From NCBI GenBank assembly GCA_958430865.1, contig CAUDNR010002291.1, positions 1 to 64,000 of the forward strand: DNA of 64,000 nt, written 5' to 3'. This DNA comes from Entrophospora sp. SA101 (lineage: Eukaryota; Glomeromycota; Glomeromycetes; Entrophosporales; Entrophosporaceae). The position numbers and the translations under genes are program-made. This document shows, in pieces, positions 26,426 through 64,000 of this stretch. Position 1 is the first letter of the stretch, and the number at the start of each line of letters is the position of its first letter. The notes beneath the pieces were generated by a model that did no database searches, was not told where the DNA came from, and saw nothing but the letters and a program-made list of their open reading frames with translations.

Positions 26426-26929
26426 ATGTCAAGTCATCCATATGTAAAAGCATTGTTTGCAGGCACCTCAATAATCGGATTTGGATATTTATTAATGAAA
26501 TTTTCAACACCAACCAGAGAGCAAATATATGAAGTTATTATTTTTAATATATAATTGATGTATTTTTTAAATTATTATATAAATTTTTTGGATTTTATTT
26601 TATTAGAAATTATCACCTGAAGTTAAACATTCAATCGAAGGTCCTGAAAATCAAGAAAGAATGAAGCAAATCATGACAGTAATGAGAAAAGCTGCAGAAA
26701 CTGATAAAACAAGTAAAAAAAAGCCATTTCATACATGGGAACTGTGCCAATAAAATATGGTTCTGGCAAAAACTAAAAATTGTTGGCACAATCCCATTTA
26801 TTTATAATTTAAGATTATTATTATTATTTAATGTTACTAATGTCATAACAAATTAATTCACTATTAGTATTTGATCCTAAACAATTGATCGAAGAGATTA
26901 AAAAAGAAAAAGAAAAAGAAAATAAATAG
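26426..26929 (+). CDS. CBP4-like assembly factor, second copy
   Basis: Exact duplicate of the gene at 7136-7639, with exons 26426-26533, 26607-26712 and 26868-26929. It has the same N-terminal helix and LSPEVK motif. All splice signals are unchanged, so the copy should be as functional as the first if the duplication is real. Confidence 0.6.
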
Positions 26930-28232
26930 ATTATATAAAATACAATTTATAATAATAATAACAATAACAATAAAATTATTGGCTATAACCATTTAACATT
27001 TGCAATAATAAGGTTACATTTTGATCATACCAATCTCTTGGTGATATTGACATATAAAAATTGTTTCTAATTTTATTTTTAAATATTTTTTATATATCCA
27101 GACTAAAGGTCAAAAAAATTATGCAAAGATAAGTGAGGAAACATAAAATCTGAGTTGAGGCATTCCTGCAAATTTATGGTCTGATTGAGATTTTACTATA
27201 TCATCTTTTATTGGATGTGTGATTTCTATATCACTGCAATACCTTTAATGGCCAATATAATTAAGATTCAGATTATTGTTAAGATTTGAGATTGTAAAAA
27301 CAGCCAAATGTATTCTGTTAAATTTATTGTAATCAAGAAATCAAGAAATCTGTAACCTGATGATTTCAGTCAAGTGACAAGACAAGAATTTTCACTTGAA
27401 TCAATTAATCAAATAATAACTATAACTTCTTGTTTGAGTATGATGATACCCATGTATTTTTATTGCCATCATTATATGCAATCATAAACATATGTAAACC
27501 TATACAATGATCCTGGTTCTTTATTTAATTTTGAATCACAAGGTGTAATGCCATCAGAACTTTTCAAAATTAGCAACAGAAACAGTGTATTCAGGTGGAG
27601 ATGGCAAATGCCCTTCATCTCCTTCTGGTGATAATGATGATTTACTTGAGTCATAATAATAATTCTTCTTTTGTTTTTGTTGTTAAGTAAATGTGAATTC
27701 ACTATTATTATTTTCTCTAACAACAACTTTACCAGGTGATTGAATATTTCTTTCAAATGAATTCTTATCAATTACAGAGTTGTTGTTAATGGGATATAAG
27801 GGTTGATTATTATTATTTGATAATTAGAACCAGTATCTTGGAATATTTTAGCATTTCTTGCACGTTATAATAATAAATATATAGCAAAGAAATTTTTTTA
27901 AAGGTGTTAATAAGAATATTATCTGTAAAAATTATTTATTAAAAAATTATATGTTTACTATGTAGTGAATTTAAGTCTTTGTGTATTGTACTAGTACTTT
28001 GTTAAAATAAATGGAACAATTTCTCCTTGTTGAATTCCATTGACTAAACGTTCAATTTAAAATCTTTCCAAATCATAAACTCCGTTCAAATTTAACTCTA
28101 TATAGTAACAGCATGCAAATTTTTTTTGAATATCAGAAATTTTTGTCGGTTTTTAAATCATGTGATTTGAGATTATCAACAAATTTTTTATAAATATTGG
28201 GTGGGAGCTTTTTTGATTATAACAAAATAAAA

Positions 28233-31200: not shown

Positions 31201-32889
31201 CCACGTAATATGTATCAATGTCAGGTATTTATATATATGACTTGATTTCTTTTGTTTTTAATATTTTTTTTTTTTGGAAATGAGGAAGAAAACATATCGT
31301 TAATTAATTGATTAATATAAATATATAGATGGCTAAACAAACGATGGGTACGCCATCAACTGCTATTATGCATAGAACAGATAATAAAATGTATCGATTA
31401 CAAACAGGTCAAACACCTATTGTTAGGTCTAATGTAATTCACAATAAATATGGTTTAGACGGGTTTCCCAATGGTATAAATGCTATTGTTGCAGTAATTT
31501 CATATACAGGTTAGTTGGGATTTAAAATTATTTAGAGAAAACCTCTTTTCTTAGCATTAAAATAATCAATAAATACATCTTTTTTTCTCCATTGCAAAAT
31601 TTTCAAAAAAAAAAATTTAAGGTTATGATATGGAAGATGCTATGATCATCAACAAGTCTTCACATGAAAGAGGTTTTACATATGGAACCATATATAAATC
31701 AGAAGTGATTAATCTTGCTGATTATCGAATAGGTAGTGAAATAAACGTTCATTTTGGTCTTGGGCCAGATGCTCCTGCATCTTTACGTAAGAAGATTGAT
31801 GATGACGGATTTCCATATATTGGGATAAAGTTGACAAATGGTGATCCTTTATGTACCTACATTGACTCAAAAGGTGTTACTAAAATAAAAAAATACAAAG
31901 GATTAGAGGATTGTTATGTGGATAAAGTACGGGTTTTAGGTGATGATTTGGGACTTTATGAGGCTCAAAAAGTCCACATTATGTTAAGAATTCCGAGACC
32001 AGCTATCATTGGTGATAAATTTTCTTCAAGGCATGGACAAAAAGGTGTTTTGTCACAAAAATGGCCCCAAGTTGATATGCCATTTACAGAAAGTGGTATG
32101 CAGCCAGACATTATCATCAACCCTCATGCTTTCCCCTCGCGTATGACTATTGGGATGTTTGTGGAGAGTTTAGCTGGGAAATGTGGCGCTATGTTTGGTG
32201 TGCCGCAAGATTGTACGCCATTCCGATTTGATGAAGACCACACTGCAATTGATTATTTTGGTGAAGAATTGAGAAGAGCTGGATTTAATTATCATGGTAA
32301 TGAACCTATGTATAGTGGAATCACTGGCGAGGAATTTCAGGCAGATATTTATATTGGTGTTGTTTATTACCAACGTTTACGTCATATGGTTTCGGACAAA
32401 TGGCAAGTTAGATCCACAGGACCAGTTCATAACCTTACTATGCAACCTATAGGAGGACGTAAAAAAAGTGGTGGTATAAGATTCGGTGAAATGGAGCGTG
32501 ATTCACTTTTGGCACATGGAATGAGTTTTTCTTTACAAGATAGATTATTAAATTGTTCAGATTATTCACAGGTTTTGTATATACTTTGCAGGTGGGGGGT
32601 TTTAAAAAATAATATTATATATTCCTAATTACTAATCATCAAAAATTTTTTTATAATAATAATTTAGTGTCATGTATGTCGAAATTGTGGTTCACTTTTT
32701 ACTTCAGTCTCTTTTAATACACAATACTTGGCAAAAAGTCAGAGAAATTTCGAGAAACATTCTATGAAATGTAATATATGCGATAACTCTAAGTGGATTG
32801 CTTTAATAAAAATACCTTATGCATTTAAATATTTAGCTACAGAGCTTATTAGTATGGGCGTAAAGATTAAAGTAGACGTCAAATCATGA
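28233..32889 (+). CDS. RPA135: RNA polymerase I subunit RPA135, second copy
   Basis: Exact duplicate of 8943-13599; each of the 14 exons is displaced by 19290 and the predicted 1150-residue protein is identical. Two intact copies of a gene that is normally single-copy in fungi are unexpected and bear on whether the duplication is biological. The zinc-ribbon exon is 32668-32889. Confidence 0.93.
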
Positions 32890-32996
32890 TTGGTAATGGC
32901 GATTTAGGTATTTCCCTTCTTATGTCAAAAAAAAAAAGATCTTGTATTTTTTTGTACTATATAATTAAATTAAAAAAAACAGACTTATTTTTAAAA

Positions 32997-33036
<40 letters not shown>

Positions 33037-33128
33037 TTGATTGATTGATTTAAACAATGTTTTGTTTTTTTACAAATAAATGAATTTTAATTTAATCATT
33101 ATTTTGTTTTTTCGAATAATTAAAATTT

Positions 33129-33724
33129 TCAAGAAGCAATAGTCACTTCAACTTCAACACCAGGTTCGATAGAAATCGAAGTCTAAAGAAGAATGAGGGA
33201 AAGGGAAGAGGCAAAGGAAAAAAAGTAGAGGAATAAGAGACAAAAATAAAAAAATTTAATTATTACATAAAAATTCATACTAAAAATAAATAACTTACGA
33301 TCTGTTTAACGATTTCACTTGGGCTATGTAAATCAATCAATCTTTTATGGATTCTCATTTCATATCTATCCCAAGTTTTACTACCCTCACCACAAGGAGT
33401 TTTACGTGTAGTAATACGTAAAACTTTAGTTGGCAAACGTACAGGTCCTTTCACACGTAATTGTTTATCTTTTGCTCTGTTTATCAAATCTGTGCATACT
33501 TTTTCTAAAGCTTTGACTTTCCGTGAAGTTAAAGTTATACGAATACGATGAACCTGTCAACAAAAAAGTTTTAATTAATTTGAGGTAATAATAATCTATT
33601 TGATGAAAGTGTTGATATAAAATTTAAATTTTTTTTAATCTAATTTATCAAATTTGCCATTATCTACTACCTTTGGAGCTTCGTCGATGTAATCGTCTTT
33701 ACCTTTTGATGTATTATAACTCAT
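33129..33724 (-). CDS. RPS20: Ribosomal protein uS10 (RPS20), second copy
   Basis: Exact duplicate of 13839-14434 with exons 33671-33724, 33299-33553 and 33129-33182. The 120-residue product and the divergent promoter interval to the Mrp10 copy are unchanged. Confidence 0.95.
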
Positions 33725-33848
33725 AGTTATTTAAAAGATATTTTTATTAATAAAATTTTAAAAAAAAATTTTTTTTTTTAACAATCGAAAAAAAAATAAA
33801 AAGGAAAAGATCATCGATAAAAAAATTTTTTTTTGATTTATTTTTATT

Positions 33849-34171
33849 ATGAAAATTACAAAGCTTCGGGCAAAACCAAAAAAACTTGAACAATTAGGTC
33901 CATGTACACCTGAAGTAGCAGCATTATTGACTTGTTGGGCCAATAATACAATGAATTCTTCTGCTTGTATACAAAATGTGCAAGCACTTTCTAATTGCAT
34001 GCGTAATGTGGTGAGTAAACGATCATTTATATTTTATTAAAATCTATTATTGAAAATTAATCTATTCATCAAATTTTATATATAAATACACATGTGTATA
34101 TTTAGCCAAGAAAAACGAAACCTCCCAATACTATCAATTATCATCTTTCAAGACTTGGTAAATTATTATGA
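33849..34171 (+). CDS. MRP10: Mitochondrial ribosomal protein Mrp10, second copy
   Basis: Exact duplicate of 14559-14881 with exons 33849-34010 and 34106-34171. Both CX9C pairs are intact. Confidence 0.9.
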
Positions 34172-34284
34172 ATCGATTTAATCTTTTTAGAATATTAATA
34201 AATGAATGATTAATGATGATGATGATTGGCCGATAAAAATTTTGTATCAAAAAAAATATTAACTAAAAAAATAATATAAATAAA

Positions 34285-35094
34285 ATGTTTTTTAAAAATA
34301 TTATTAAATCAATTTATCCAAAAAATTTAATTCACCCAAGAAATTTAATTTATCCAAAAAGAATATTTACGAACAATCCATCATTATTGATTTTTATTAA
34401 TATTAACAACTATATTACTAATAGTCACAGTCACAATCATAGTCTGTATTATAATTATAATACAGTAGCAATCAATGAGAATAGAGAGGAGAAGGAAAAA
34501 CAAGTTAAAGTGAGTAATTATGAGAACGAGAACGAGGAAAAGAAAAAAAGTTGTGTTGATGAAGATGAAAGAGAAAAGAAGAATTCTAGAAAGAGAAGAG
34601 AAGAAAAAAGAAATCAATTACTTAAAGAACAGAGAAAACAATATTATATTGATAATTATGTTGATGTGAATTTTGATCTTTTAAAAGGAAGTTAACATAG
34701 AAAATTTATTCTGTTAACTTTAATAAATAATAAATGTATATTAATTTATTAATTTTATTAATTTTCATAGATTTTCCCAAATGGTTATATGGAATTAGAA
34801 TGCATAGATATGTAAAAAATTTTGAAAATATGAAATGGGAAGAGATTGTTGAATTGGATTCTGAGGGATTAGAACAATTAGGAATTGAAGAACATTTTGA
34901 TAGGAAAAAATTGTTAAAAGAATTTAGAAATATTAGAAATACCATATATGTGTTGGTAAGTGTTTGTCCCTTTAATATTCACATTATTTAATATTATTAT
35001 TGTACTAGTAGCAACATGCTATTATATTATTAACAATATTTTTGGTTATATATAGTCATTATATGATAATAGAAATGGCGAGGAACCTTTATAA
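34285..35094 (+). CDS. SAM/IGR-motif protein, second copy
   Basis: Exact duplicate of 14995-15804 with exons 34285-34690, 34771-34955 and 35056-35094. Same presequence-like N-terminus and SAM/IGR-like domain. Confidence 0.55.
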
Positions 35095-35286
35095 TCCCTA
35101 AAATGGAATTTTTTAATTAATCAATTTATTGTCTATAATTTCTAATATTACAATTAATTACAAAAAATAAAATTAATTTATAAATATAGCAAATTAAATA
35201 AAAACACTATATTCCAAAAAAAAAGGATTATCTATGTAACTAATAATCCCTTCTTATCATCACCACTATTACCACCACCACTAATA

Positions 35287-38200
35287 TTATTCTACAAATT
35301 CGACATGAATTGTAGGTGGTGATATCTTTTCTTTAGGTTTTCTCTTTGGTGATTCATTTGCTACTTCTCTTGTAATTATTGAATGTTTTTCCAATTTTTC
35401 TTTTTTTCTAATTTGTCTCGCCAAATCCAAATTATCTGGATACCACCATTGTTTAACGAATGTTATAATATATCTTGGTAACAATGACAACCAAATTACG
35501 AATAATAATCCAAACCAAAATATCGGCTCACTGAACAACTGTGCACCAATTCCATATATTGGACTATCCACAAACATCCCGTAAATTGTAACGAACGCAA
35601 ATACTGAAAAAATTTCTACGACTAAAGATGCCCAAGTAAAAAATGTCCAATGGTAAGTATTATAGCTAACAAACAGATTTGCTATCACTATCACTGAAAC
35701 TGCTACTGCTGTAGAAAATTCAATTGGACCAGCTGCCGCTCCTTCGATTGTCACCACATTTTCGGACAATATATATATAAAGTGATGGATGAAATATACA
35801 ACTAACGATTGCCAAATTCCATCAAGAAAATAGATTGTAAACAGGAATTTCGAGTATCTTTTTTGTTTAATGCCCAATATATAAATACTTGGATATCGCA
35901 AACAATACGATTTACTGACCGATTGGTCCATTGCACCTAATACAATTACAGGTGCGACTGTAAATATCATGTTGTAAAGTTGTACAAAACTATAATCGTA
36001 AAATATATTTCCTGAAAATCTAATATTAATGATTCAATTAATTAGTGCTGATTAATAAACTATTAATATCATTCAATTACGAAAACACTTACAGGCAAAA
36101 TATTTGATACCATAATACAGGAAATACCCATATCACATTCTTATAAAAGAAATTCAATATCATTTCAGAAATTCTCAAGTAATCCCAATGGCCATGTACT
36201 AATAATAAATTTCCAAGAAAACGAAATTGTGGCATAGAATAATCAGCTGCCATTGATGCTTGAACTCCTATAAAATATTTATATGTGAGATATTTAGCAA
36301 ACTAAATTTTCCATCCGGATATTATAATAATAATAAGTATTATTTTACCTTCTTGTCCAGATATTCCAATACCAACATTTGCTGCTTGAATCATACTTAC
36401 ATCATTAGCACCATCTCCGATGGCCAAAGTTGTAGTCCTTTTACCTGTTCTTATTAGCTCTACAACAAAAGCTTTTTGTAAAGGACTTACACGACAACAT
36501 ATCACTGAATGAAAAGCCTCTGATAATGATATCAATTTGTTTCTAGCACTATCGTCATTTAATAAATGTGCCAAAGATGCACCATCAATTATTAAAGCAT
36601 GTTGTACATTTTGCATATTATCATTATTATCATCATTAAGATCATCTTCATAATCATTATTATTATTGACTTCTTGCATCTGTTGATTTTGTTGTTGCCC
36701 ATTAGGTGTCGCAATATTGTTTCCAAGTAAGGAAGCCACTACATCATCTAATTGCTTCATTACGCTATCTTTTTTAGATCCTCTTATAATCCATAATCTC
36801 ATTTCTTTTGTTAATAGTTGAGCTGCAAATCCAATATTAATTGCAGTCTCTAGCTTATCACCAGTCAACACCCAAACTTTAATTCCTGCCTCTCTTAATG
36901 ACGTAATACATTCAGGCACTCCTTCTTGGAGTTTATCCTCGATTGCTGTTGCACCTAACAAAGTTAAATCCTTTTCTATTTCTTCAGAAATTTGGTCAAT
37001 TTTCTGTGATCGATTTTCTAAAGATGTCGATGCCTCATTGTATTTTTGTGACCATGTTTGATAATGCGATTCATCTATTTTACGATATGCCAAGGTCAAT
37101 GTACGAAGTCCTAAATAATATTAATGGTTTTATTAAAAAAAAAAATAACGATAATAACGATTTAAAGAAATTTATATTTATAATTTTAAAAGTTACCATA
37201 ATTAGAAAAAACATCAATATCATTGGAAGTTTTTTCGATTAAATCATCTTGCCCAGGAGCCAATAGTTCAAAAATGACGTTATCAGCACCTTTACAAAAC
37301 AAAAGGATCTCGCTACCTAATTCTTCTGGACTTTTAACAATAACACTCATTCTTTTACGAGTAGAATTGAATTGTAATATGTTGAGGATTTGGTAGGTAT
37401 ATTCTTTACCGAAAATATCGATTGTGATAGAATCAGTAGACCTACCCAAGAATACAAATCCAAGATTTTTAGCTGCCGAGACAAGAGCTGCCTCATCAGG
37501 CGATTCAGCTTTATATATAAGATTTTTTTCTAGTGATTTGTCAATTGGAATTGCTTTAATGGTACCAGGATTTGATGGGCCAACTAGATTTGTAACTGAA
37601 TCAAGAGCTTTCAATGATGGTAGTATACTATTAATATTAATAAATGATTCTCTGACTTTTCTCTTTGCTTGATAAATATATGAACCATTTTCATCATCAT
37701 TATTATTCACATTATTATCATTATTATTATCATTGACATTTATGTTTTCTTCACTACTAAAATTTGATTCTTGATCTATTTTAGTATCATTATTATCGTT
37801 ATTAGTATCGTTATTATCATTGTTATTATCATTGACATTATCATTGCCATCATTATTATTATCAGAATCAACAACTACAGTATGGCAAATTGCCAATAAG
37901 GTGAAAAATTTTGTAATCAAGCCTGCTCTATCTATCAAATCTTGATGATGACTGTCATCACCACTGCTACTGCCGCCAATGTTATCGTCATTGATTTCAT
38001 ATTCAATTTTACTATCGTTATAATTATCTTTTTTTTGAGCTCTAAGATCTCTAAATAATTCAGGATCAGCAAATGACAAGAAATTGGAATCGGTACTTGA
38101 ATATTTTGGTTTAAATGTTTTTGTTAACTCTCGTAAATAATCATTAAAAATTTGATCTTTAGATGACTTGTTATTATCGTCATCACCATCAACAACATCA

Positions 38201-40326
38201 ACCTGACTTTGTATCATTTCTTTTCCTCTTTCAGCATCTGTTTTATCACCCCAACCATTTTTACCATATATTTTAGCACCAATAGAACATTGCCTGAATT
38301 CCATTATGTTACGTGTGAGTGTACCTGTTTTATCAGAAAATATATATTCTATTTGTCCTAGATCATCTGATAGATTCCACTATTGATTTTGTGATTAAAA
38401 ATTTGGATTAAAATATGTAGAACTTTTTTAAAGAAAAATAATTAATATACTTGCAGATTTTGGAACACATGAAGCCTGAGAATCTTCATCCCACATATCA
38501 AGATCATTATAAATAAAAAATGCCTAATTCGATCCATAAATATTTATATATAAAATATTTTTTTAAATAAAATATAATTAATCAATCAATCAACCAATCA
38601 ACTAATTACCTGAACTATTCTCACAAATTCTATTGAAATGTATAATGAGATTGGAATAATATTTTGAAAAATAATTAAACTTGCCCTGTTAAAATATAAT
38701 TTTATTTTTAAAATTTAAATAATTATTTACTTTTTTTTTTTTTAAAAAAAAAATAAGAACAACATACCAAAAAGTGACAAATGAAGCCAATTCAATTGAG
38801 TCTCTATTTGAATCTAATCTTTCAACAGCATCAGGTACTTGATCTTTCAATACATAAGTTGATATAGCACTTCCTATTGCGCAAGTTAACGCAAGCATAA
38901 TAAGAATGATAAAATTTAAAATAACCTTTTGGAAAATAGGGGTAAGAATTAATTGTAAGATTAATATGAATGTGTATATTTTAGATTTCAATAATTAATT
39001 GATTTATAATAAAATTACCTCATGATTCATTTCCTTCTCAATTCTACTACGTTTACTTGGAGTTTCGCCAGAATTAAGCATAATTTTTGTTTCAATGCCA
39101 GTAAAAATAGTAATTGCTATTACCCATTTTGTATTTCTAATAACATGAGCTCTTAACAGCAAATTATTTACATCTAAAGGTACTATTCTTTTTTCTTCGT
39201 CAATAGCTTCTTCTTCTTGTATTTCACCTTGTTGCACCGATTTATTTTGAATTAATACAAGTTTCGCACTGTAAGAATACAAATTAGAATTTGGAGCTTC
39301 TGATTCAATATAAAATTTCAGTTGTGTACAATCTTTAGCACTGTTAATGATATCTTTTGTATCAGGCACACATCTACGAGGTTTTAGATTAGTTTCACCG
39401 TCAAGATCTTTAGTTTCAACATAACAAGTTCCTGACTGTTCTGATGTTGATAAAATTATTGAATCAGCAGGTACAACATCTCCATTCCTAAGAAATATGA
39501 AATCACCAACACGAACATTTCTCCATGTAGTTTTTTTAAACAATGGCTGACCATCTATAGTATTTGACGGTTCTGATGGTGGAGATTCTTCATCAACACC
39601 TTCTAGCCGATCATTATCATCATTATCTATTTGTTGTTCATTGTCATTATTATTTTGCTCGATTTGATCAATTTGTCGTGTATTATCATCATCATAATTA
39701 TTGTTGATTGATCGTTTTTGACTTTTGTCGGATTTAAAGAATAATTTATACAATATTTTTTCCCAAGCAGTAATTAATTTTTCTCGAGGATAATTTACAT
39801 TATAAAAATTTTGCAATACATAACAAGTATCACTATTGAATTTCTTGTCTATTTCATGTCTATTTCTATCCTCGATAGCATCTTTCATAGCAGTGAAAAA
39901 GACTACAGTTGATAAAGGGAGAACAGTCAAAATGGGGTTGTTTGTTGCAAGTTGTGGTAAAAGTCCAAGTATGGCCATGAATAAAAAATACATATTCGCA
40001 GCTTTACGAAACTGTTCAAATAAATTTTTTGGTAAAAAAGTCCAAATTGTATATTTCGAGGTTACTATTTTATTTGTCACATATTTAATTTTTGGATTCC
40101 CTTTATGATCTATGTCGGTTTTTGGCAATTCTAAATTAGCATGCACTTTACGTTCTTTTTTACTTGCTTTTCTTTCCTTAATTTTTGATTTTTTTCTCTT
40201 GGTCTGTTTTTTGGAAACCTTTTTAGCTTCATTATTGATAGACTTATTATTAGAATTAGTAGCAGTAGTTGTGTTTATATTAGAATTATCGTTATCGTTA
40301 TCATTAAATTTAAAAATCGATGGCAT
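35287..40326 (-). CDS. P4-type ATPase, second copy
   Basis: Exact duplicate of 15997-21036, including the GC-AG intron (38380-38454) and the Asn/Asp-rich insert. All eight exons are intact; the predicted 1487 residues are identical. Confidence 0.93.
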
Positions 40327-41743
40327 GATAAAAAAGTGAATATAAATGATCTTTACATTAATATTAATAATGAAATTTTTGAATTATTAACACGCATGGA
40401 TATAATGAGCATAGTGAGTGAACATTTATATTGGTTGGTAGTACTCGTGTCAATCACTTTGTATTAGTATGTATGTCACAATAAGGGGACCTCGGAATAG
40501 ATTCTGTCTATCCCGTCTTTATTGTATATTATTTTTTAGGAAGTTTGCGTCACAAATACCCAAAATGTTACAATGATGTTATTTAACGGATTATCTAAAA
40601 ATAAAAGATGCAGTGCAGATCGTCTATACCAAGGTTGGCTATGATACCGATTCATTGATGGTCATTGGACCCATTGGTGTAACAATTTAACCATATGGAG
40701 TAATTTATTAATAGCGTAGCAACATGAATTTTTTCCATTATTAATTTGACGGACAATCCTTTAAAATCGGTACCCACCGACCATCCTAAACCATTAAACA
40801 TTCCCATTATCATCTTTAATATTTAAAAGTTTTTAAAAGTTCTTCAAGGTATTTTTTATTTACTCTATTTCCAACAATGTTGCAATCCTGTTTTTATATT
40901 CATTGTGTTTCACGTTTTATAGGGGGGGCGACATTTATATGTGTAGCATTTGTTGATAATATATCACCCTTTTCGGAAAGACATTTACCATATTTACATA
41001 TTAATTAATTTCTTTTTTTGCCCAAATTGAAAAAGTGATTATGGAAATCATTTTGACTATAAATGAATGAGCATGAATAAACAAATTAACGAGTTCCGAT
41101 CATTTATAATAAAGGTGATCTCATATATACATGACCTTCTTAATTTGGATGTGGAACCTATAGAACATGAATTAACAAGGGTTCACGCACATCATAGATG
41201 GCGCTTCCAAATTAGGAAGGTCCTGTATATAGGATTTTCCTTGTAATTTTTCGAGAAAATGGTTTTGGGATTTAAACTATCAAATGCTTTTATCATTGAC
41301 TGATTTTGGTTTCAATCAGATTATCTGTTTGTTACCGAATTTTATTGTATCATAATTCACTTTTAAAACAGATATTATTACCTTTAGATGCTCAACTAAA
41401 AACTTTGGAAATTTCAACTATTTCTTGTCTGAAAAAATCATGTGACTTTTTGATGCTTACCCAAAATTTTACCATCTAACTAATATACTAATATGACGAT
41501 TCTCCGGGTTCTTCTGTTCAACTTCACTAAGCACTTTATCTTCTTTAGAGAACTATACCATATCAGACAACATTTCTTCGTCTTTGTAAAAAAATAAATT
41601 GTTTTTCCAAAAAAAAAAAAATCAATCGCGTCAACAATATAAAAAAACCAATAGGGGATTTCTTGTACAACCCATATAAAAATCAATTCATTTTCATTTG
41701 GATCAAAATCTTAATCTTGAACAAATAAATAGATGATCAACCT

Positions 41744-41911
41744 GTCAGAGCCAGGGTTGGCAAATTGACTGGTCCATTGAGAATTGTGTACTTTGGACTG
41801 ATCCATTGCCATTAATAAATACTAAATATGGTTAATGGTTACATTAATGGGCTCAATAGATCACCAATGGACCACCAATGGACCACATATTTGCCAACCT
41901 TGGTCAGAGCT
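41744..41911. mobile_element. MITE-like element with GGTTGGCAAAT termini
   Basis: The left end TCAGAGCCAGGGTTGGCAAA and the reversed right end (CTGACCAAGGTTGGCAAATA) form imperfect terminal repeats of about 20 bases. The interior has direct repeats of GACCACCAATG. It starts 8 bases after the end of block A homology. A related CCAAGGTTGGCTATGAT segment is seen near 21338 in block A. Mirror copy at 60207-60374. Confidence 0.55.
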
Positions 41912-42286
41912 CCTAAATTATATCAAAAGTATAGATACTTCGAGTTTCACGAAACCAATTGTCTCAATTGATCTATTTTTAATTTTGAAGAATCTTTATG
42001 AAATGGTATATCACATATTATTAATGAATAAATCCATAATGAAACAAATAATGATAATAATACCGATAATAACAATCACTTTGAGGTTATTGACAATAAT
42101 GACATTGATATCAACAATATTGAGATGACTGATAATAATAGCAATCAATCAATTCATAATAATTGAATTGAAATAAATAACAATTCACAATGTCATTGAA
42201 GAAAAAGGTGGTTGGTCACACCATGAAATAAATATCCTAGTAGAATTTATTTTAGACAAAAAAATTGAAATGAGAAAACTCAATCA

Positions 42287-42410
42287 CAGTCAACCCCCTC
42301 TAAGTGCAACCCTCCTTGAGAACATATCACTATTTCTCATGAATGTGCATTTAGAGAGGGTTTACATAGTGAGTGCATTTAGAAAGTGTGCACTTAGAGG
42401 GGGTTTACTG
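42287..42410. mobile_element. Pogo/Tigger-type MITE (124 bp)
   Basis: The ends are CAGTCAACCCCCTCTAAGTG and, reversed, CAGTAAACCCCCTCTAAGTG, with one mismatch across about 22 bases. The CAGT...CCCCCTCTAAGTGCA pattern is typical of pogo/Tigger ends. Near-complementary flanks (AACTCAA.../...TTGAGTT) extend the hairpin outward. Mirror copy at 59708-59831. Confidence 0.7.
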
Positions 42411-42711
42411 CAGTTGAGTTTATATAGAACTAAAGATGCAATATTAAATAAGAGCAGAATAATCAAACGGCAAATAAGAAATTTATTTAATGTTTAGCAC
42501 ATTGCAAAACCTTCAAATAATTTTTTTTTCAATAATTCAAAATAAAATAAATTGATATTCGCATTATATTCAGTTGAGTTTATATAGAACTAAAGATGCG
42601 ATATTAAATAAGAGCAGAATAATCAAATGGCAAATAAGAAATTTATTTAATGTTTAGCTCATTGCAAAACTTTCAAATATATTTTTTTTTGATAATTCAA
42701 AATAAAATAAA
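42411..42711. repeat. Tandem duplication, unit about 160 bp
   Basis: Two near-identical units start with CAGTTGAGTTTATATAGAAC at about 42411 and 42570. They differ at scattered positions such as GATGCAATA/GATGCGATA and AAACGGC/AAATGGC. Each ends in TTCAAAATAAAATAA. The first unit abuts the MITE end. Mirror copies at 59407-59707. Confidence 0.8.
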
Positions 42712-42884
42712 ACGGGCATGCTGCAACAAAACCAGACAAAGTGAACATTGGTATAACCAAGAATTTCAGGGATCAAAATTTAGTAATGTGATTATTATTA
42801 TTAAAATCTCCCATTCGTTCATTTGTTTGTTATCTTTGTTTTTTCCTTGATATATAGAATCACCTCTATATAAAAATAGTTAAT

Positions 42885-43148
42885 ATGAAGCTAATTTACA
42901 TTAGGTCTACTATGGAACCCAAGAATTATAGTACCATTAGAGGTATCCTGAAGAAAGAGCAAGGTGAAATTGCTCCTTATATTTTCAAAATAAATGACAC
43001 TCAAACACTGGAAATTTATCTAAAAAAAGAAAGGATTACTTATGAAATTTACCAAGAAGAAAGGAAAATAATAAATGTTGGAAAATGAAAACATCATGAT
43101 GATGCATTATTACCTAATAAAAAGCAAAAATCTTTAAAAGGAAAATAA
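42885..43148 (+). CDS. Small ORF of the code-4 island; continues through TGA
   Basis: ATG at 42885 (or MEPKNYST at 42912) opens a frame that meets TGA at 43086, then continues 20 more sense codons to TAA at 43146. If TGA is Trp the product is 87 residues and ends VGKWKHHDDALLPNKKQ...KGK, a typical basic tail. It converges on the zinc-ribbon gene that ends at 43231. The spacer contains AAAGGAAA...TTTCCTTT, a weak hairpin that could terminate both. The start is preceded by AT-rich sequence without a clear ribosome site. No family recognised. An exact reverse copy lies in the right arm. Confidence 0.45.
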
Positions 43149-43230
43149 CTACCATTTCCTTTAATAGTTGGAATGAATTTCAATTTATAGAGAGGAAAAT
43201 TATTTTCTTATTTTCAATCAAGATCATCTT

Positions 43231-43787
43231 TTAGTCTCTTTGACTTCAATTTGAGCAATTTGACCATTCTGTTGATCTTTTAATTTCCTTGTTTTCTTCT
43301 TCCAGATGATTAATTTTTTCTTCTAAACTTTTTATCTTATCTAATAACTCCTGTTTTTGCTTTTTACTTCACTCTTCAGATTTTTCCTGAAACTTGGCTA
43401 CTTCTTCTCTTTCTATTTTCAACCCCTCCTTGGCAGTTTTCAATTCCTTTTCAAGTTCCTTTGTTTTCTTTGCTAAGCGAGCTTCAATAGTTTGAGAAGA
43501 AGATGATTGAATTGGTCTTTCTTTTTGAAGACTACAAAAGCAATATCCTCTGTTTCTTTTTAGTCTACCACATTCCTCACAATAAGGAAGTGTGCCATTT
43601 TCTAAATCTTTCTTACAATTATCACAGATAGAAGCAATATCAACACATTTATCTTTCTTATCATAAGCCACTATCTCATAATTAGCAGGAGTGAAAGTAA
43701 GTTCTTGTCAAAGGGAACATCTAACAAACAATAATTACAACTCCGTGTTTTATTTTCTGCTTCTAAAATTCTGTATTCCAATTTCAT
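43231..43787 (-). pseudogene. Zinc-ribbon/coiled-coil gene of the code-4 operon, left copy, frameshifted
   Basis: Starts MKLEYRILEAENK, only 2 bases after the stop of the upstream gene, with AGG in place as a ribosome site, like a bacterial operon. Cysteine pairs CNYC, CDNC, CEEC and CFC suggest a small zinc-binding region. A Glu/Lys coiled coil follows (REEVAKFQEKSEE, KKQKQELLDKIKSLEEKINH) and the end is EWSNCSNWSQRD. Two TGA codons (EE-W-SKK and SN-W-SQ) must be read as Trp. One frameshift lies near 43700 between DVPFDKN and TFTPANYE. The right paralogue at 58306-58887 is unbroken in code 4, so this copy has decayed or carries a sequence error. From 43400 down it is identical to the right copy. 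Confidence 0.6.
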
Positions 43788-43789
43788 AA

Positions 43790-44428
43790 TTACCTGTTAT
43801 TTTGTAAAATGTAAGTGTTGAATTTTTCTCTTGCTTGCTCTTTTACTCTATTTGCTAATTGTTGTAATTTAATCTTTTTCTCTTTTGCTAGCCTTGTTGT
43901 TTTGAACTGTAATTTTTTAAGTTTGCTTGGTTTACACTTCTTTCTTAATTCTTGGTTCTCTATCATCAAATCAAATATAACATTACCTTTATCCATGCCT
44001 AGATTGAAAAGATTTCTATCATGATATTCTTTGGACTTGTCTAGTGCTTTCAAGTTCATTTCAACTTCTATGTCTACTCTTTCTTCTAAATTCTCCATTA
44101 TGTTATCTTTTTCTTCCACATTTGCTTCTAATTCCTTAATTTTTTCAAGCAATTCATTCCTCTCTTTCTCTAAACTAGATGTTAGTGACTGTAGACTTTT
44201 AACTTCTTTATCAGCTTCTACTCATCAATTCATTGCATTTTTATGCATGTAAATAAGGAGAACAAAACTTTTTCTAAATTTTTTGTCTTCTAAGTGTTTT
44301 AATGCATAAGGGCGAAGTCAAAAATAATCTATAACTGCTCTTATCTCTGTTTCATCTGGATTTTGGTTTAAACCACCAATTAGTTCTCTTATTTCTTCTT
44401 CAGTCAAAATGTTGTTTTGGTTTGTCAT
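43790..44428 (-). CDS. Coiled-coil protein, first gene of the code-4 operon (left copy)
   Basis: With TGA as Trp this is one uninterrupted frame of 212 residues from MTNQNNILTEEEIRELIG to KEQAREKFNTYILQNNR. An AAAGG ribosome-site-like sequence sits 7 bases before ATG. In-frame TGA codons occur at DYF-W-LRP and AMN-WW-VEA. There is no TAA or TAG although the frame is rich in Glu, Lys and Gln. Residues about 75-130 are strong coiled coil. It is paralogous to 57694-58299: the ends (KEKFxTxIxQxNR) match and one TGA falls at the same aligned site. In the standard code only a 120-residue piece would be seen. The product family is unknown to me; the lack of introns and the ribosome site suggest bacterial origin. 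Confidence 0.65.
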
Positions 44429-44628
44429 GATTTTACCTTTTTTTTTTTTTTTTTTATTCTTTTAATATACTTATATCCTTTTTATGCATATTAAGTATAT
44501 AAATTATTTTAGTGCTTTTTTACTTTAAAACTAACAATATTTGTCAAAAGATTAAACTTATTAAACTTAATGACAGCAAACAAATTAATGGGTGACAAAG
44601 TCATGGAAGTGATTTTATTCCAAATATT

Positions 44629-46384
44629 TTATTTGTTGCCAGTATAGAATGGTCTTGGACAAGTAATATCTTTGTATTCATCCTTTACAAATGGGCGAAT
44701 ATTATTATAAAGATACTCTTGTCTTTTGTAATCCAAAGGAGGAGGTGTTAATACTAAAATGGATAAAGCTCTAATTTCTTCAAAAATATCTGCTCTCTTG
44801 GATTTCAATAAATTGAATTCAGTAAAAGGTCCATTAGCAACTTCTTGAACTTTGACCATACCAAGATTAGGTGCTTCAAAAAGAAAATGTTGATATTTGT
44901 ATACTTGGTAATTTCTTGAAATAAATTCCCAAAATTGCTTTAATATCTAAATATTGAAAGCCTTTTCCACTTTCATAACATTGAGCCTTATTCAATCCTG
45001 CTGGACTAGACTTTTTTATCACTTCAACCACATGATCTAGACAATCTACTCTCGTTCTTCTATAGAGTTTTTTAATCATGCCAAAATTACCATCACATTT
45101 GAATTTAGTATGTCCTGGAATCATGAAATTCAATTCAATACTTTCATAATAACCACAAATTACTAAATATAAATAAAATCAAATAGTAGTGTTATTTTTA
45201 TTCTGTCCTCCAGCATTATCACAAGTAATCTTTAAATGCTTTTCACCTTTATTCAATTTCTTAATTCCATCAAAAATCATGCTAAGAGTGCCATTGGGTC
45301 CTTTGCCTATAATTTCATCTTCATTAAGAACATAATTAGTTTGTTCCCTTACTGCTTCATCTTGAATACCAAATAAATGAACTTTACATGGACTAAGATA
45401 ATAAATCTTACTTACTTGTTGATCAGAATGGGGCACATGAACATTTTGGGCTCAATCATAACTATAATGTGCAGTGGCATCAATACTGCAATATGGTGTT
45501 TTACCCTTTGAATAATTTTGATTAATCAATTTTCTTTGTTCTTCAGCTAATTTAGTATTTTTATTGTAATAATTTCTTTCTAATCTTGCCTTGGACAAAT
45601 GTTCTTTGAATCTTTTGAGCAGATCTTTGGCTTCTTCCTCTTGGCGAGCATTGTAATGTAAACCATTTCGAAAATGTTGACAAGTATCACACAAGTCAGT
45701 CCTTGGACTCATAATTTGAATTTCTGGTGTCAATTGATGTCATAGTTTTCTGAAAGCATCATATTTTAAGGATTTCAAATTACTATCTTCTTCCAGACCA
45801 GCCAGAAAATCTCTATACACTGATTTATAACTCATTTCAGCTGGTAAAAAGATAACTGACTGAGTTATTCTATTAACACTTCTGCCTGGGCTTGGTAATC
45901 CATGAACTTCTGCATAATTTTCTAGAAAATTCCTTACCACCTCAGCAACATTTTTGTCAATCACTATTTAGTTTTCCATTGAGGCATCCTTTTAATATTG
46001 CCATGAACTCTTGCTAGAAGACCATTTTTTATCAAATGATTTCTAATGTTTCCAAAATAAGTTCTACCAATTCCTAACATATTGAGATAAGTTTCTTGAC
46101 AAAGAGGTGTATTGTGATTCAGTGATAGAAAGTTCTTTTATTAGATCTAGTTTTCTTTTTAAGGCATCTGCTAGCACTTGTTAATCCCCCATCCATGGCT
46201 TTAAGTTGAGCCATTAAAAATATGTCTTGTTCTACTTTAGAAAGAGCTTGAAAAGATTCTCTTAATTCTGCAATTGTTCTTTGGGAATTCTTGAAGAACA
46301 ACCACAATTACAACCTTTTTCTAAAAAATCAATGGCTTTTTGATATTCATTAGAACCATTATATTTATTATTATTACCTTTCAT
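44629..46384 (-). pseudogene. DUF7869-like transposon-associated protein gene in genetic code 4, frameshifted
   Basis: Pieces in order: MKGNNNKYNGSNEYQKAIDF...GCNCGC; AELRESFQALSKVEQDIFLM; TPLCQETYLNMLGIGRTYFG and GLLARVHGNIKR; DKNVAEVVRNFLENYAEVHG; SPRTDLCDTCQHFRNGLHY; KITCDNAGGQNKNNTTI; NFMIPGHTKFKCDGNFGMIK; APNLGMVKVQEVANGPF. The order and motifs (LxMLGI...RxHGN, P-x-TDLCxTCQ, DNxxGQNKNN, GHTKFxxDxxFG) fit the eukaryotic DUF7869-like family found beside transposons. TGA interrupts the frame at FRKL-W-HQL, SYD-W-AQN and TTI-W-FYL, where I expect Trp or an aromatic residue. Four frameshifts (near 46285, 46138, 45968, 44895) show decay or indel errors. Seen: motifs, TGA, shifts. Inferred: a fungal or animal-type gene that spent time in a code-4 genome. 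Confidence 0.65.
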
Positions 46385-46473
46385 ATACACTTATCCCTAT
46401 ATATATAATTTTATGTTCACTTTGTAGTTTTTTATAAAATTGAAGGAGAGTATATGAATGGAATTAAACTTAG

Positions 46474-51049: not shown

Positions 51050-51059
51050 NNNNNNNNNN
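51050..51059. other. Assembly gap (10 N)
   Basis: Ten undefined bases join two contigs of unknown spacing. The gap lies on the symmetry axis of the inverted repeat (51059). Confidence 1.
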
Positions 51060-57545: not shown

Positions 57546-57693
57546 CTTTCAGTATATAAAGCACCCAAAGAATGTTTATGCAAAGTTTCACGCATTTTTG
57601 TTTGTGTAATTTTTATGTTACATTAATGAGTATTTTAAAGTACTTTTTCAATTAATTTTGTTAGTTGCACAATATAAATATGATCGTCACTTT

Positions 57694-58299
57694 ATGTCAC
57701 ATTTAGTGTTAAAATCGAAAGTCCACTATGCTAATGAAACTAGGGAATGAGCTAAAAACTGTAAAAGAGTTTGATTTGACAATATTACCATTGAAGAGAT
57801 GTTAGATGGATTTATTGATAGTTCTAATGAGTTAAGTTCAGAATGATTAGACTATGTTGGAAAATTAAGCAGAACCAATAGTAAACTTTATGAACAAAAG
57901 AGAGACTATGAAAAGAAAATTGAGGAGTTAGAGGCAAAAAAGGAGGAATTGGAAGCAAGAGTAGAAGAGTTAGATGACGGAGTATGAATGGAGTGAGAAG
58001 AGGCTGAAAAAGCACTAAATAAAGCCATGGAATGGAGAAAATGACAAATGTTTGAAACTTTGTTGAAGCATGATGCTGCAATGGGCAAACTTCAAGACCA
58101 AATAGATTTATTGGAAAATAATTTAGCTGCTAAAAATCAGGAAATAAACTGAAAAGATTATTTAGCAACCAAAGAATTACCAGCTCTACCAAAACAACAA
58201 AAAGAAAGTAGATTATGTAAACTCAAAAAATTAGTAAATAAAGTAAAAGAAAAAACTAAAGAGAAGTTTCAGACTTTTATTGTTCAAAAGAACAGGTAA
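57694..58299 (+). CDS. Coiled-coil protein, first gene of the code-4 operon (right copy)
   Basis: With TGA as Trp, 201 sense codons run from ATG at 57694 to TAA. Seven TGA codons lie at 57748, 57772, 57844, 57985, 57994, 58042 and 58150, all in one frame. There is no TAA or TAG despite many CAA, CAG and AAA codons. The middle is coiled coil (EKKIEELEAKKEELEARVEE); the end KEKTKEKFQTFIVQKNR matches the left paralogue. The frame is open upstream to 57609 and similarity begins before the ATG (DRHF/DKKF), so the true start may be upstream or the 5' end lost. The next gene follows after 6 bases. Standard-code translation gives only fragments. Confidence 0.65.
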
Positions 58300-58305
58300 G
58301 CCAAT

Positions 58306-58887
58306 ATGAGATTAGAATATAGAATTCTGGAAATAGCCCAGGGAGATGAACAAGAGTGTAATTTCTGTTTTCTAGATTTTGATGACCCAACTCTCCTTAA
58401 TTTCGATACTGCTCTTGCTACTCATCAAATGGTGGCTCATAATACTCCTGATGGTTATTCTGACATTGTCTTTATCTGTGGTGAATGTAAAAATGATTAT
58501 GATAATAATACTCTTCCATGATGTGAGAAATGTGGTAGGTTAAAAAGGAATAGAAACAGATGTTTTTGTAGTCATTTAAAAGCTAAATCAACTAAACCAC
58601 TTTCTGACAAAGAACTACTTTCACAAGCTTTCAGTTTTCGCCTAGAAAATAAAACTAGAGAACTAGAAAAAGAGTTATCAATTACCAAAGAAGAATTAAA
58701 AATTGAAAGAGAAGAAATAGCCAAGTTTCAGGAAAAATCTGAAGAGTGAAGTAAAAAGCAAAAACAGGAGTTATTAGATAAGATAAAAAGTTTAGAAGAA
58801 AAAATTAATCATCTGGAAGAAGAAAACAAGGAAATTAAAAGATCAACAGAATGGTCAAATTGCTCAAATTGAAGTCAAAGAGACTAA
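58306..58887 (+). CDS. Zinc-ribbon/coiled-coil protein of the code-4 operon (right copy, intact)
   Basis: Code-4 frame of 193 residues from MRLEYRILEIAQGDEQE to EWSNCSNWSQRD. TGA-Trp codons are at 58519 (TLP-W-CEKCGR), 58747 (SEE-W-SKK) and 58870 (CSN-W-SQ). Cysteine pairs CNFC, CGEC, CEKC and CFC could bind zinc; a Glu/Lys coiled coil follows (about 110-180). Where the right copy has TGA at 58519 the left paralogue has TAT (Tyr), an aromatic-for-aromatic change that supports Trp. The upstream gene stops 6 bases before the ATG, and AGG lies about 10 bases before it. Exact identity with the left copy begins at 58718. Confidence 0.65.
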
Positions 58888-58969
58888 AAGATGATCTTGA
58901 TTGAAAATAAGAAAATAATTTTCCTCTCTATAAATTGAAATTCATTCCAACTATTAAAGGAAATGGTAG

Positions 58970-59233
58970 TTATTTTCCTTTTAAAGATTTTTGCTTTTTA
59001 TTAGGTAATAATGCATCATCATGATGTTTTCATTTTCCAACATTTATTATTTTCCTTTCTTCTTGGTAAATTTCATAAGTAATCCTTTCTTTTTTTAGAT
59101 AAATTTCCAGTGTTTGAGTGTCATTTATTTTGAAAATATAAGGAGCAATTTCACCTTGCTCTTTCTTCAGGATACCTCTAATGGTACTATAATTCTTGGG
59201 TTCCATAGTAGACCTAATGTAAATTAGCTTCAT
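58970..59233 (-). CDS. Mirror copy of the small code-4 ORF
   Basis: Exact reverse copy of 42885-43148, with the same TGA (59030-59032) and the same convergent position relative to the zinc-ribbon gene, which ends at 58887. Confidence 0.45.
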
Positions 59234-61791
59234 ATTAACTATTTTTATATAGAGGTGATTCTATATATCAAGGAAAAAACAAAGATAACAAACAAATGAA
59301 CGAATGGGAGATTTTAATAATAATAATCACATTACTAAATTTTGATCCCTGAAATTCTTGGTTATACCAATGTTCACTTTGTCTGGTTTTGTTGCAGCAT
59401 GCCCGTTTTATTTTATTTTGAATTATCAAAAAAAAATATATTTGAAAGTTTTGCAATGAGCTAAACATTAAATAAATTTCTTATTTGCCATTTGATTATT
59501 CTGCTCTTATTTAATATCGCATCTTTAGTTCTATATAAACTCAACTGAATATAATGCGAATATCAATTTATTTTATTTTGAATTATTGAAAAAAAAATTA
59601 TTTGAAGGTTTTGCAATGTGCTAAACATTAAATAAATTTCTTATTTGCCGTTTGATTATTCTGCTCTTATTTAATATTGCATCTTTAGTTCTATATAAAC
59701 TCAACTGCAGTAAACCCCCTCTAAGTGCACACTTTCTAAATGCACTCACTATGTAAACCCTCTCTAAATGCACATTCATGAGAAATAGTGATATGTTCTC
59801 AAGGAGGGTTGCACTTAGAGGGGGTTGACTGTGATTGAGTTTTCTCATTTCAATTTTTTTGTCTAAAATAAATTCTACTAGGATATTTATTTCATGGTGT
59901 GACCAACCACCTTTTTCTTCAATGACATTGTGAATTGTTATTTATTTCAATTCAATTATTATGAATTGATTGATTGCTATTATTATCAGTCATCTCAATA
60001 TTGTTGATATCAATGTCATTATTGTCAATAACCTCAAAGTGATTGTTATTATCGGTATTATTATCATTATTTGTTTCATTATGGATTTATTCATTAATAA
60101 TATGTGATATACCATTTCATAAAGATTCTTCAAAATTAAAAATAGATCAATTGAGACAATTGGTTTCGTGAAACTCGAAGTATCTATACTTTTGATATAA
60201 TTTAGGAGCTCTGACCAAGGTTGGCAAATATGTGGTCCATTGGTGGTCCATTGGTGATCTATTGAGCCCATTAATGTAACCATTAACCATATTTAGTATT
60301 TATTAATGGCAATGGATCAGTCCAAAGTACACAATTCTCAATGGACCAGTCAATTTGCCAACCCTGGCTCTGACAGGTTGATCATCTATTTATTTGTTCA
60401 AGATTAAGATTTTGATCCAAATGAAAATGAATTGATTTTTATATGGGTTGTACAAGAAATCCCCTATTGGTTTTTTTATATTGTTGACGCGATTGATTTT
60501 TTTTTTTTTGGAAAAACAATTTATTTTTTTACAAAGACGAAGAAATGTTGTCTGATATGGTATAGTTCTCTAAAGAAGATAAAGTGCTTAGTGAAGTTGA
60601 ACAGAAGAACCCGGAGAATCGTCATATTAGTATATTAGTTAGATGGTAAAATTTTGGGTAAGCATCAAAAAGTCACATGATTTTTTCAGACAAGAAATAG
60701 TTGAAATTTCCAAAGTTTTTAGTTGAGCATCTAAAGGTAATAATATCTGTTTTAAAAGTGAATTATGATACAATAAAATTCGGTAACAAACAGATAATCT
60801 GATTGAAACCAAAATCAGTCAATGATAAAAGCATTTGATAGTTTAAATCCCAAAACCATTTTCTCGAAAAATTACAAGGAAAATCCTATATACAGGACCT
60901 TCCTAATTTGGAAGCGCCATCTATGATGTGCGTGAACCCTTGTTAATTCATGTTCTATAGGTTCCACATCCAAATTAAGAAGGTCATGTATATATGAGAT
61001 CACCTTTATTATAAATGATCGGAACTCGTTAATTTGTTTATTCATGCTCATTCATTTATAGTCAAAATGATTTCCATAATCACTTTTTCAATTTGGGCAA
61101 AAAAAGAAATTAATTAATATGTAAATATGGTAAATGTCTTTCCGAAAAGGGTGATATATTATCAACAAATGCTACACATATAAATGTCGCCCCCCCTATA
61201 AAACGTGAAACACAATGAATATAAAAACAGGATTGCAACATTGTTGGAAATAGAGTAAATAAAAAATACCTTGAAGAACTTTTAAAAACTTTTAAATATT
61301 AAAGATGATAATGGGAATGTTTAATGGTTTAGGATGGTCGGTGGGTACCGATTTTAAAGGATTGTCCGTCAAATTAATAATGGAAAAAATTCATGTTGCT
61401 ACGCTATTAATAAATTACTCCATATGGTTAAATTGTTACACCAATGGGTCCAATGACCATCAATGAATCGGTATCATAGCCAACCTTGGTATAGACGATC
61501 TGCACTGCATCTTTTATTTTTAGATAATCCGTTAAATAACATCATTGTAACATTTTGGGTATTTGTGACGCAAACTTCCTAAAAAATAATATACAATAAA
61601 GACGGGATAGACAGAATCTATTCCGAGGTCCCCTTATTGTGACATACATACTAATACAAAGTGATTGACACGAGTACTACCAACCAATATAAATGTTCAC
61701 TCACTATGCTCATTATATCCATGCGTGTTAATAATTCAAAAATTTCATTATTAATATTAATGTAAAGATCATTTATATTCACTTTTTTATC

Positions 61792-64000
61792 ATGCCATCG
61801 ATTTTTAAATTTAATGATAACGATAACGATAATTCTAATATAAACACAACTACTGCTACTAATTCTAATAATAAGTCTATCAATAATGAAGCTAAAAAGG
61901 TTTCCAAAAAACAGACCAAGAGAAAAAAATCAAAAATTAAGGAAAGAAAAGCAAGTAAAAAAGAACGTAAAGTGCATGCTAATTTAGAATTGCCAAAAAC
62001 CGACATAGATCATAAAGGGAATCCAAAAATTAAATATGTGACAAATAAAATAGTAACCTCGAAATATACAATTTGGACTTTTTTACCAAAAAATTTATTT
62101 GAACAGTTTCGTAAAGCTGCGAATATGTATTTTTTATTCATGGCCATACTTGGACTTTTACCACAACTTGCAACAAACAACCCCATTTTGACTGTTCTCC
62201 CTTTATCAACTGTAGTCTTTTTCACTGCTATGAAAGATGCTATCGAGGATAGAAATAGACATGAAATAGACAAGAAATTCAATAGTGATACTTGTTATGT
62301 ATTGCAAAATTTTTATAATGTAAATTATCCTCGAGAAAAATTAATTACTGCTTGGGAAAAAATATTGTATAAATTATTCTTTAAATCCGACAAAAGTCAA
62401 AAACGATCAATCAACAATAATTATGATGATGATAATACACGACAAATTGATCAAATCGAGCAAAATAATAATGACAATGAACAACAAATAGATAATGATG
62501 ATAATGATCGGCTAGAAGGTGTTGATGAAGAATCTCCACCATCAGAACCGTCAAATACTATAGATGGTCAGCCATTGTTTAAAAAAACTACATGGAGAAA
62601 TGTTCGTGTTGGTGATTTCATATTTCTTAGGAATGGAGATGTTGTACCTGCTGATTCAATAATTTTATCAACATCAGAACAGTCAGGAACTTGTTATGTT
62701 GAAACTAAAGATCTTGACGGTGAAACTAATCTAAAACCTCGTAGATGTGTGCCTGATACAAAAGATATCATTAACAGTGCTAAAGATTGTACACAACTGA
62801 AATTTTATATTGAATCAGAAGCTCCAAATTCTAATTTGTATTCTTACAGTGCGAAACTTGTATTAATTCAAAATAAATCGGTGCAACAAGGTGAAATACA
62901 AGAAGAAGAAGCTATTGACGAAGAAAAAAGAATAGTACCTTTAGATGTAAATAATTTGCTGTTAAGAGCTCATGTTATTAGAAATACAAAATGGGTAATA
63001 GCAATTACTATTTTTACTGGCATTGAAACAAAAATTATGCTTAATTCTGGCGAAACTCCAAGTAAACGTAGTAGAATTGAGAAGGAAATGAATCATGAGG
63101 TAATTTTATTATAAATCAATTAATTATTGAAATCTAAAATATACACATTCATATTAATCTTACAATTAATTCTTACCCCTATTTTCCAAAAGGTTATTTT
63201 AAATTTTATCATTCTTATTATGCTTGCGTTAACTTGCGCAATAGGAAGTGCTATATCAACTTATGTATTGAAAGATCAAGTACCTGATGCTGTTGAAAGA
63301 TTAGATTCAAATAGAGACTCAATTGAATTGGCTTCATTTGTCACTTTTTGGTATGTTGTTCTTATTTTTTTTTTAAAAAAAAAAAAAGTAAATAATTATT
63401 TAAATTTTAAAAATAAAATTATATTTTAACAGGGCAAGTTTAATTATTTTTCAAAATATTATTCCAATCTCATTATACATTTCAATAGAATTTGTGAGAA
63501 TAGTTCAGGTAATTAGTTGATTGGTTGATTGATTGATTAATTATATTTTATTTAAAAAAATATTTTATATATAAATATTTATGGATCGAATTAGGCATTT
63601 TTTATTTATAATGATCTTGATATGTGGGATGAAGATTCTCAGGCTTCATGTGTTCCAAAATCTGCAAGTATATTAATTATTTTTCTTTAAAAAAGTTCTA
63701 CATATTTTAATCCAAATTTTTAATCACAAAATCAATAGTGGAATCTATCAGATGATCTAGGACAAATAGAATATATATTTTCTGATAAAACAGGTACACT
63801 CACACGTAACATAATGGAATTCAGGCAATGTTCTATTGGTGCTAAAATATATGGTAAAAATGGTTGGGGTGATAAAACAGATGCTGAAAGAGGAAAAGAA
63901 ATGATACAAAGTCAGGTTGATGTTGTTGATGGTGATGACGATAATAACAAGTCATCTAAAGATCAAATTTTTAATGATTATTTACGAGAGTTAACAAAAA
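61792..64000 (+). CDS. P4-type ATPase, third copy, cut by the window end
   Basis: Same sequence as the two complete copies but on the + strand. Exons are 61792-63099, 63193-63350, 63433-63508, 63595-63663 and 63739 to the window end. The DGET, PISL and DKTGTLT motifs are present. The GC donor at 63664 is retained. The gene continues beyond 64000, so no statement on completeness is possible. Confidence 0.9.

Follow-up and report, generated by a model that had tools for sequence, protein, structure and literature searches.

The gene pair at the right end of the window, the whole 64,000-nucleotide stretch of DNA analysed here, is a truncated, chimeric copy of a dispersed DNA transposon and no lone bacterial operon. 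As judged from their sequences, the transposase and the two cargo genes of this element, gene 1 and gene 2, are the three genes that read TGA as Trp. Mollicutes, including the Mollicutes-related endobacteria (MRE) of arbuscular mycorrhizal fungi, read TGA in this way. We consider it probable that a fungal-type DUF7869 transposon was recoded in a lineage using genetic code 4, most likely MRE, and that it repeatedly entered the host nucleus.

Structure of the element and its two copies in the window

Under code 4, the frames at 57658-58299 and 58306-58887 of the plus strand remain open, with 7 and 3 in-frame TGA codons and a spacing of 6 bases. Re-reading of these frames confirmed what the sequence-only reading had reported, namely ten in-frame TGA codons in two adjacent frames 6 bases apart, and no intron is needed, as it had also claimed. 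Other copies show homology from 57728 onward only, hence the upstream start of the first frame is flanking DNA, and gene 1 of the right copy (57728..58299, plus strand; coiled-coil-like by eye, 7 in-frame TGA) is a fragment without about the first 80 residues. The column of the TGA at 57994 holds CGA in 8, CAA in 4 and TGA in 8 of 20 copies, and owing to this mixture the codon might represent a C-to-T change. The tenth TGA (58870) sits behind a one-base insertion relative to other copies, and the homologous frame there differs; in other copies, the homologous gene 2 frame terminates in two other TGA codons. In the right-copy gene 2 (58306..58887, plus strand), with its eight conserved Cys and its predicted long helix, this one-base insertion near 58830 shifts the last codons, with the homologous end at about 58918. 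Further downstream lie a small, convergent ORF3 of 87 aa (58970..59233, minus strand) and the conserved right terminus GTTTTGTTGCAGCATGCCC (59386..59404, plus strand), where a 35-base end recurs among copies. Overall, homology to other copies spans 57728 to 59404 on the plus strand, which marks out a 5'-truncated, chimeric right copy without transposase.

The left copy (42714..46433, minus strand, left edge provisional) is a nearly whole element. It comprises a frameshifted transposase gene (DUF7869) with TGA at Trp (44629..46384, minus strand), a gene 1 of 212 aa in code 4 with a different N-terminal part (43790..44428, minus strand), a frameshifted gene 2 (43231..43787, minus strand) and ORF3 (42885..43148, plus strand), the end of which was derived from identity with the right copy. 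Identity between left and right copies is complete between about 58737 and 60236 or beyond; upstream of this stretch, it amounts to 43-78% per 100-base block. This partial identity, along with a one-base insertion in gene 2 that is private to the two copies, indicates that the right copy is the tail of one element joined to the middle of another. Such a chimera would have arisen through recombination or assembly. The window also harbors a 15.7 kb direct repeat of 99.99% identity (6705-22446 and 25995-41736) and a 5.8 kb inverted repeat (38118-43871 and 58218-64000), which are either true segmental duplications or an assembly artefact. As the right copy is chimeric and the window has these large near-identical repeats, the right-copy junction could be an assembly product. 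The sole gap of the window consists of ten N at 51050-51059.

The right-copy DNA gave at least 48 matches on at least 36 contigs (our own count) of the assembly to which the window belongs (101 Mb, 2123 contigs), and these counts are a lower bound, as 40 of 284 candidates were scored. The transposon is about 3.7-3.9 kb long, with a provisional left edge, and its genes run from the transposase through gene 1 and gene 2 to a small, convergent ORF close to the right end. Most fetched copies extend further left than the right copy of the window. Allowing at most 1 mismatch, we counted the 35-base right terminus 19 times in the window plus the fetched loci; duplicated stretches account for some of these occurrences. 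Left ends vary, with some copies truncated at the left, while many copies share one right end. The motif ACAAAGTGAACAT lies near both ends in opposite orientation, and of the two edges the right one is sharp. Sequence upstream of the left motif, past the presumed left end, is common to loci L011 and L039 and also to the left window copy and L020, which hints at a longer left boundary in some subfamilies. The arbitrary fragment ends expected of random, numt-like endosymbiont insertion are not what we found; the common right terminus suggests transposition and argues against random fragment insertion. Outside the count of 19, a diverged right terminus (7/35 mismatches) is located at 6875-6909 and 26165-26199, and perhaps belongs to a related element.

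In the fullest copies, the transposase has about 590 residues and matches DUF7869 (PF25273) at 62.3 bits, against a Pfam cut-off of 26. In the model of a homologue, residues 271-465 form a predicted core that is RNase H-like and of the integrase/transposase type. Across 53 sequences, the acidic positions D311 and D390 are conserved in at least 90% and D432 is invariant, and these three are the putative catalytic residues. By Pfam domain, core and acidic triad alike, the protein is a DDE-type transposase of the DUF7869 kind. A search of PDB sequences with the transposase profile returned one chance-level match only. In homologues of gene 2 (40 sequences), 15 positions are invariant and eight of these are Cys, and the model of the gene 2 protein (pLDDT 70, pTM 0.37) has a long predicted helix. 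Gene 1 combines differing N-terminal parts with a common tail that looks helical by eye.

A housekeeping bacterial operon was rejected, as the frames of the window have only weak matches, all of them below curated cut-offs where the library has such; the best pairs gene 2 with an HlyD-type model and scores 26.6 bits, the cut-off there being 208.65. A phage or plasmid element was rejected as well, protein P0002 being without a match in phage or plasmid records. A relative of the transposase or gene 2 was sought in IMG/VR, and a relative also in two scans of GTDB bacterial and archaeal contigs, and none was confirmed in either.

Placement of TGA and selection on the genes

We aligned 16 transposase and 22 gene 2 copies, several of which are duplicated stretches of one another, to reference codons, and for the tallies of TGA columns one second-copy row was dropped from each set. 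TGA stands at Trp columns 28 times in the transposase and 66 times in gene 2, and at other columns 0 times in both. Off Trp columns, TAA and TAG together number 5 in the transposase and 10 in gene 2, and one TAA occurs at a gene 2 Trp column. The code 4 that had been read from the window is thus borne out by the confinement of TGA to Trp columns in the transposase and gene 2 copies. In the 21 copies of gene 1, we counted 118 TGA versus 8 TAA or TAG, and the TGA columns are mostly, yet not all, Trp columns. TGA exchanges with TGG at transposase columns 89 (4:3) and 403 (6:6). At columns 216 (8/8) and 312 (10/10), the fetched copies invariably have TGA, and column 312 adjoins an Asp that is conserved in the catalytic core.

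Under code 4, the transposase displays a median dN/dS of 0.21 over 105 pairs, after removal of pairs with dS of 0.03 or less, with fewer than 100 shared codons or involving the second-copy row. The 21 transposase pairs with more than 450 shared codons range from 0.11 to 0.25 at dS of 0.29-0.43. For gene 2, the median is 0.33 over 204 pairs, with single pairs up to 1.1. Confinement of TGA to Trp columns together with low dN/dS points at genes that evolved while functional, where UGA is read as Trp. A single ancient transfer from Mollicutes, or a few of them, with later passive amplification in the nucleus through related standard-code DUF7869 transposases, would hardly leave such a record, as decay predicts dN/dS near 1 and random TGA sites, whereas the observed transposase median is far lower and no TGA falls off Trp columns in the transposase or gene 2. 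Moreover, the identity of the gene 2 relatives listed ranges between 41 and 98%, and in many of them TGA is the sole stop type. Passive amplification could draw on the stop-free related DUF7869 elements in the same genome and would account for some sets of near-identical matches; we nonetheless judge it quite unlikely.

Distances between copies, which are biased because similarity to the window guided the choice of copies, place 13 of 15 transposase copies at 6.8-10% from the nearest fetched neighbor, 20 of 21 gene 2 copies at 0-6.6%, and the L010/L011 pair, located at different sites, at a difference of 0.2%. The transposase distances fit many separate arrivals. The close gene 2 copies and the L010/L011 pair make some movement or duplication within the nucleus possible.

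A control was available within the same genome. All 73 main transposase matches contain TGA and 24 of them are without TAA or TAG, the stops summed over the 73 being TGA 248, TAG 46 and TAA 117 (73 of 76 matches, with three short fragment rows omitted; 72 of 1634 candidates scored). The sister group was searched with a Gigaspora rosea DUF7869 protein from that other group as query, and among the 26 rows not coinciding with the focal list, 14 are without a stop, 15 are without TGA and 11 have TGA. As exceptions in the focal group, a looser transposase search gave 5 of 97 partial rows without any stop, and one of these five (C2060:120523-121149) covers column 312 yet has no TGA at its Trp. The contrast in TGA between focal and sister group is strong, not absolute. 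Some otherwise intact sister-group matches carry a single TGA (e.g. on C1356 and C736), and these are possible intermediates or readthrough cases.

Surroundings of the copies and endobacteria in the assembly

The ORFs around the fetched copies offered no bacterial-looking neighborhood, and many of them were uninformative. Pfam-confirmed neighbors are a ferric reductase (L022), an SLC35F/EamA-type transporter (L010) and, in the window, a flippase, in agreement with the location among fungal genes that the sequence-only reading had described. Transposase frames are intact under code 4 on C145, C636, C1532 and C1744, for which one-sided flanks were fetched. Beside the intact copy on C145 lies a Pfam-confirmed protein kinase in standard code (L041), the frame of which has no TGA. 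Kinases alone are weak evidence of a fungal flank, since fungal-type kinases are reported in MRE in the available part of PMC10507103.

That bacterial contamination or misassembly alone produced these observations is scarcely credible. MRE-type contigs are indeed present in the assembly, and the long identical repeats in the window are suspicious, but a single search placed copies on no fewer than 36 contigs, the neighbors include the ferric reductase, the transporter and the flippase, and relatives occur in assemblies of other genera. The contig artefact considered by the sequence-only reading accordingly fails for the family, which is found on dozens of contigs and in other Glomeromycotina assemblies, but could account for the right-copy junction, given its chimeric make-up and the near-identical repeats of the window. 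Its other proposal, bacterial DNA inserted in the fungal nucleus, also stood in part: code 4 and fungal surroundings speak for it, whereas the simple insertion of an operon gives way to a family of dispersed transposons, the DUF7869 transposase of which is of eukaryote type.

In the same assembly, three 16S genes score 1378-1438 bits with the bacterial model. Near each of them lies a code-4 frame with a bacterial-type domain, and these frames encode MnmA and a Lon-type domain (L034), NifU_N (L035), and a class-V aminotransferase and HIT (L036). MRE and metagenome proteins are the nearest to this MnmA, with identities of 69% for DhMRE, 67% for GvMRE and 66% for Candidatus Moeniiplasma; a protein in an Entrophospora assembly reaches 87%, covering 73% of the query. 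A pattern scan for UCA tRNAs, which allows no intron and no mismatch and is hence not exhaustive, gave 36 matches versus 28 in the reversed control. Nine candidates were fetched, and three of them proved to be real tRNAs, 75-76 bases long and with the CCA encoded, found once on C1735 and twice on C792. ARAGORN labels these SeC, from the anticodon; our reading is that they are Mollicutes tRNA-Trp(UCA). Bacterial 16S genes, an MnmA closest to MRE proteins and the UCA tRNAs together bear out the presence of MRE-type Mollicutes in this assembly. Contigs C1138, C293, C923, C792 and C1735 (L034-L036, L051-L053) are MRE-type contigs mixed into the fungal assembly. C792 (226 kb) has two different pairs of UCA tRNA and tRNA-Leu, perhaps reflecting two genomes or a duplication.

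The tRNAs bear on another explanation, namely that the copies are native nuclear elements and that the fungal cytosol decodes their UGA as Trp, through a suppressor tRNA or through strong, transcript-confined readthrough. This would agree with several of the 73 main transposase matches being intact under code 4, with four intact copies whose one-sided flanks are without bacterial genes, and with the absence of an MRE-resident copy among the matches listed. However, the three real UCA tRNAs of the nine fetched are of bacterial form with encoded CCA. An element-borne tRNA was sought as well, and none occurs in the 18 loci or the window. The fungal flippase exon in the window has TGG at all four Trp, and the sister DUF7869 group in the same genome is without TGA in 15 of 26 rows. 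Cytosolic reading of UGA as Trp is therefore unlikely.

The element and the endobacterial genes resemble each other in codon usage: Trp is encoded by TGA at 94 of 111 codons in the transposase and gene 2 and, in seven ORFs of MRE-type contigs, at 20 of 24. Among the matches listed, none is an element copy on the MRE marker contigs C1138, C293, C923, C792 and C1735. Neither the best 120 of 272 transposase matches nor the best 120 of 220 gene 2 matches include an MRE-named protein, and in both sets most matches are unnamed; the database does contain named MRE proteins, as seen in the MnmA search. The Mollicutes-resident homologue anticipated by the sequence-only reading was thus sought as an MRE-borne copy and not found among the matches listed. 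Code 4 is common in fungal mitochondria, and this, like the lack of an MRE copy among the matches listed, would fit a home in another code-4 compartment, for example the fungal mitochondrion, or in an unknown code-4 endobacterium. We regard such a home as highly improbable, given the three MRE-type 16S genes already in the assembly and the share of TGA at Trp in the element, which resembles that of ORFs on MRE-type contigs. The preferred home, MRE, is inferred from code, selection and company.

Proposed history and comparison with known systems

A tree of 35 proteins, rooted at the midpoint, places the focal clade with two metagenome relatives (support 100/99) beside a group that includes Glomeromycotina proteins. 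Among the matches listed, homologues occur in assemblies of Ambispora, Gigaspora, Geosiphon, Diversispora, Funneliformis and Entrophospora, and in many metagenomes. Together with the MRE, these relatives point to Glomeromycotina as the probable group of the host fungus. In the four aligned fungal models (Ambispora, Gigaspora, Geosiphon, Diversispora), the segment at column 312 is missing; as far as protein models can tell, this would be expected if a gene predictor had put an intron across the TGA. If so, standard gene prediction in mycorrhizal fungi can lose segments around such TGA codons. Two DUF7869 proteins, P0044 and P0116, come from MAGs labelled Nitrososphaeraceae archaeon, possibly through fungal contamination.

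The history that we favor would begin with a eukaryote-type DDE transposon (DUF7869) of the host entering a lineage with UGA as Trp, most likely the MRE of Glomeromycotina. Inside this code-4 lineage, mutation would have recoded the element, variable cargo genes would have been acquired, with cargo recombining between copies, and purifying selection would have been maintained. Copies from a diverse code-4 pool might then enter the fungal nucleus repeatedly, many of them decaying there. The right copy would be one such remnant, in which recombination with a second copy (or assembly) caused further scrambling. In the nucleus, either the bacterial transposase or, in trans, a related fungal enzyme could be at work. 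Both the direction and the repetition of transfer, as well as transposase-made nuclear insertions, are what we infer from these data. More tentatively, the element could be a domain-crossing shuttle, taken from the host by Mollicutes, recoded with diversifying cargo and still seeding nuclei across Glomeromycotina.

If this history is true, the genetic code serves as a passport stamp, with TGA at Trp columns telling which cell type last selected a mobile element. The direction and frequency of DNA flow from endobacterium to host would become measurable. The element would also be a case of repeated symbiont-to-host transfer of a bounded mobile element, instead of random fragments. In the portion of the literature available to us, we recognised no description of such an element.

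DUF7869 proteins of Glomeromycotina, for example those of Rhizophagus irregularis and Gigaspora rosea, share the domain with the transposase, at 36-38% identity over 92% of the query. DUF7869 sequences of the other group in this genome are TGA-free in 15/26 rows, whereas in the focal clade TGA stands for Trp and cargo genes are present. The genes of Candidatus Moeniiplasma (MRE) resemble those of the transposon in code 4, in intron-free and closely spaced frames and in a similar share of TGA at Trp; unlike them, the fetched transposon copies lie among fungal or uninformative DNA. Gene transfers from fungi to MRE are reported in the accessible portion of PMC10507103, and the transposon likewise suggests DNA traffic between this host group and its symbiont. 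The two differ in placement, as that portion describes fungal genes inside MRE, whereas here a code-4 transposon is found inside the fungus, in many copies.
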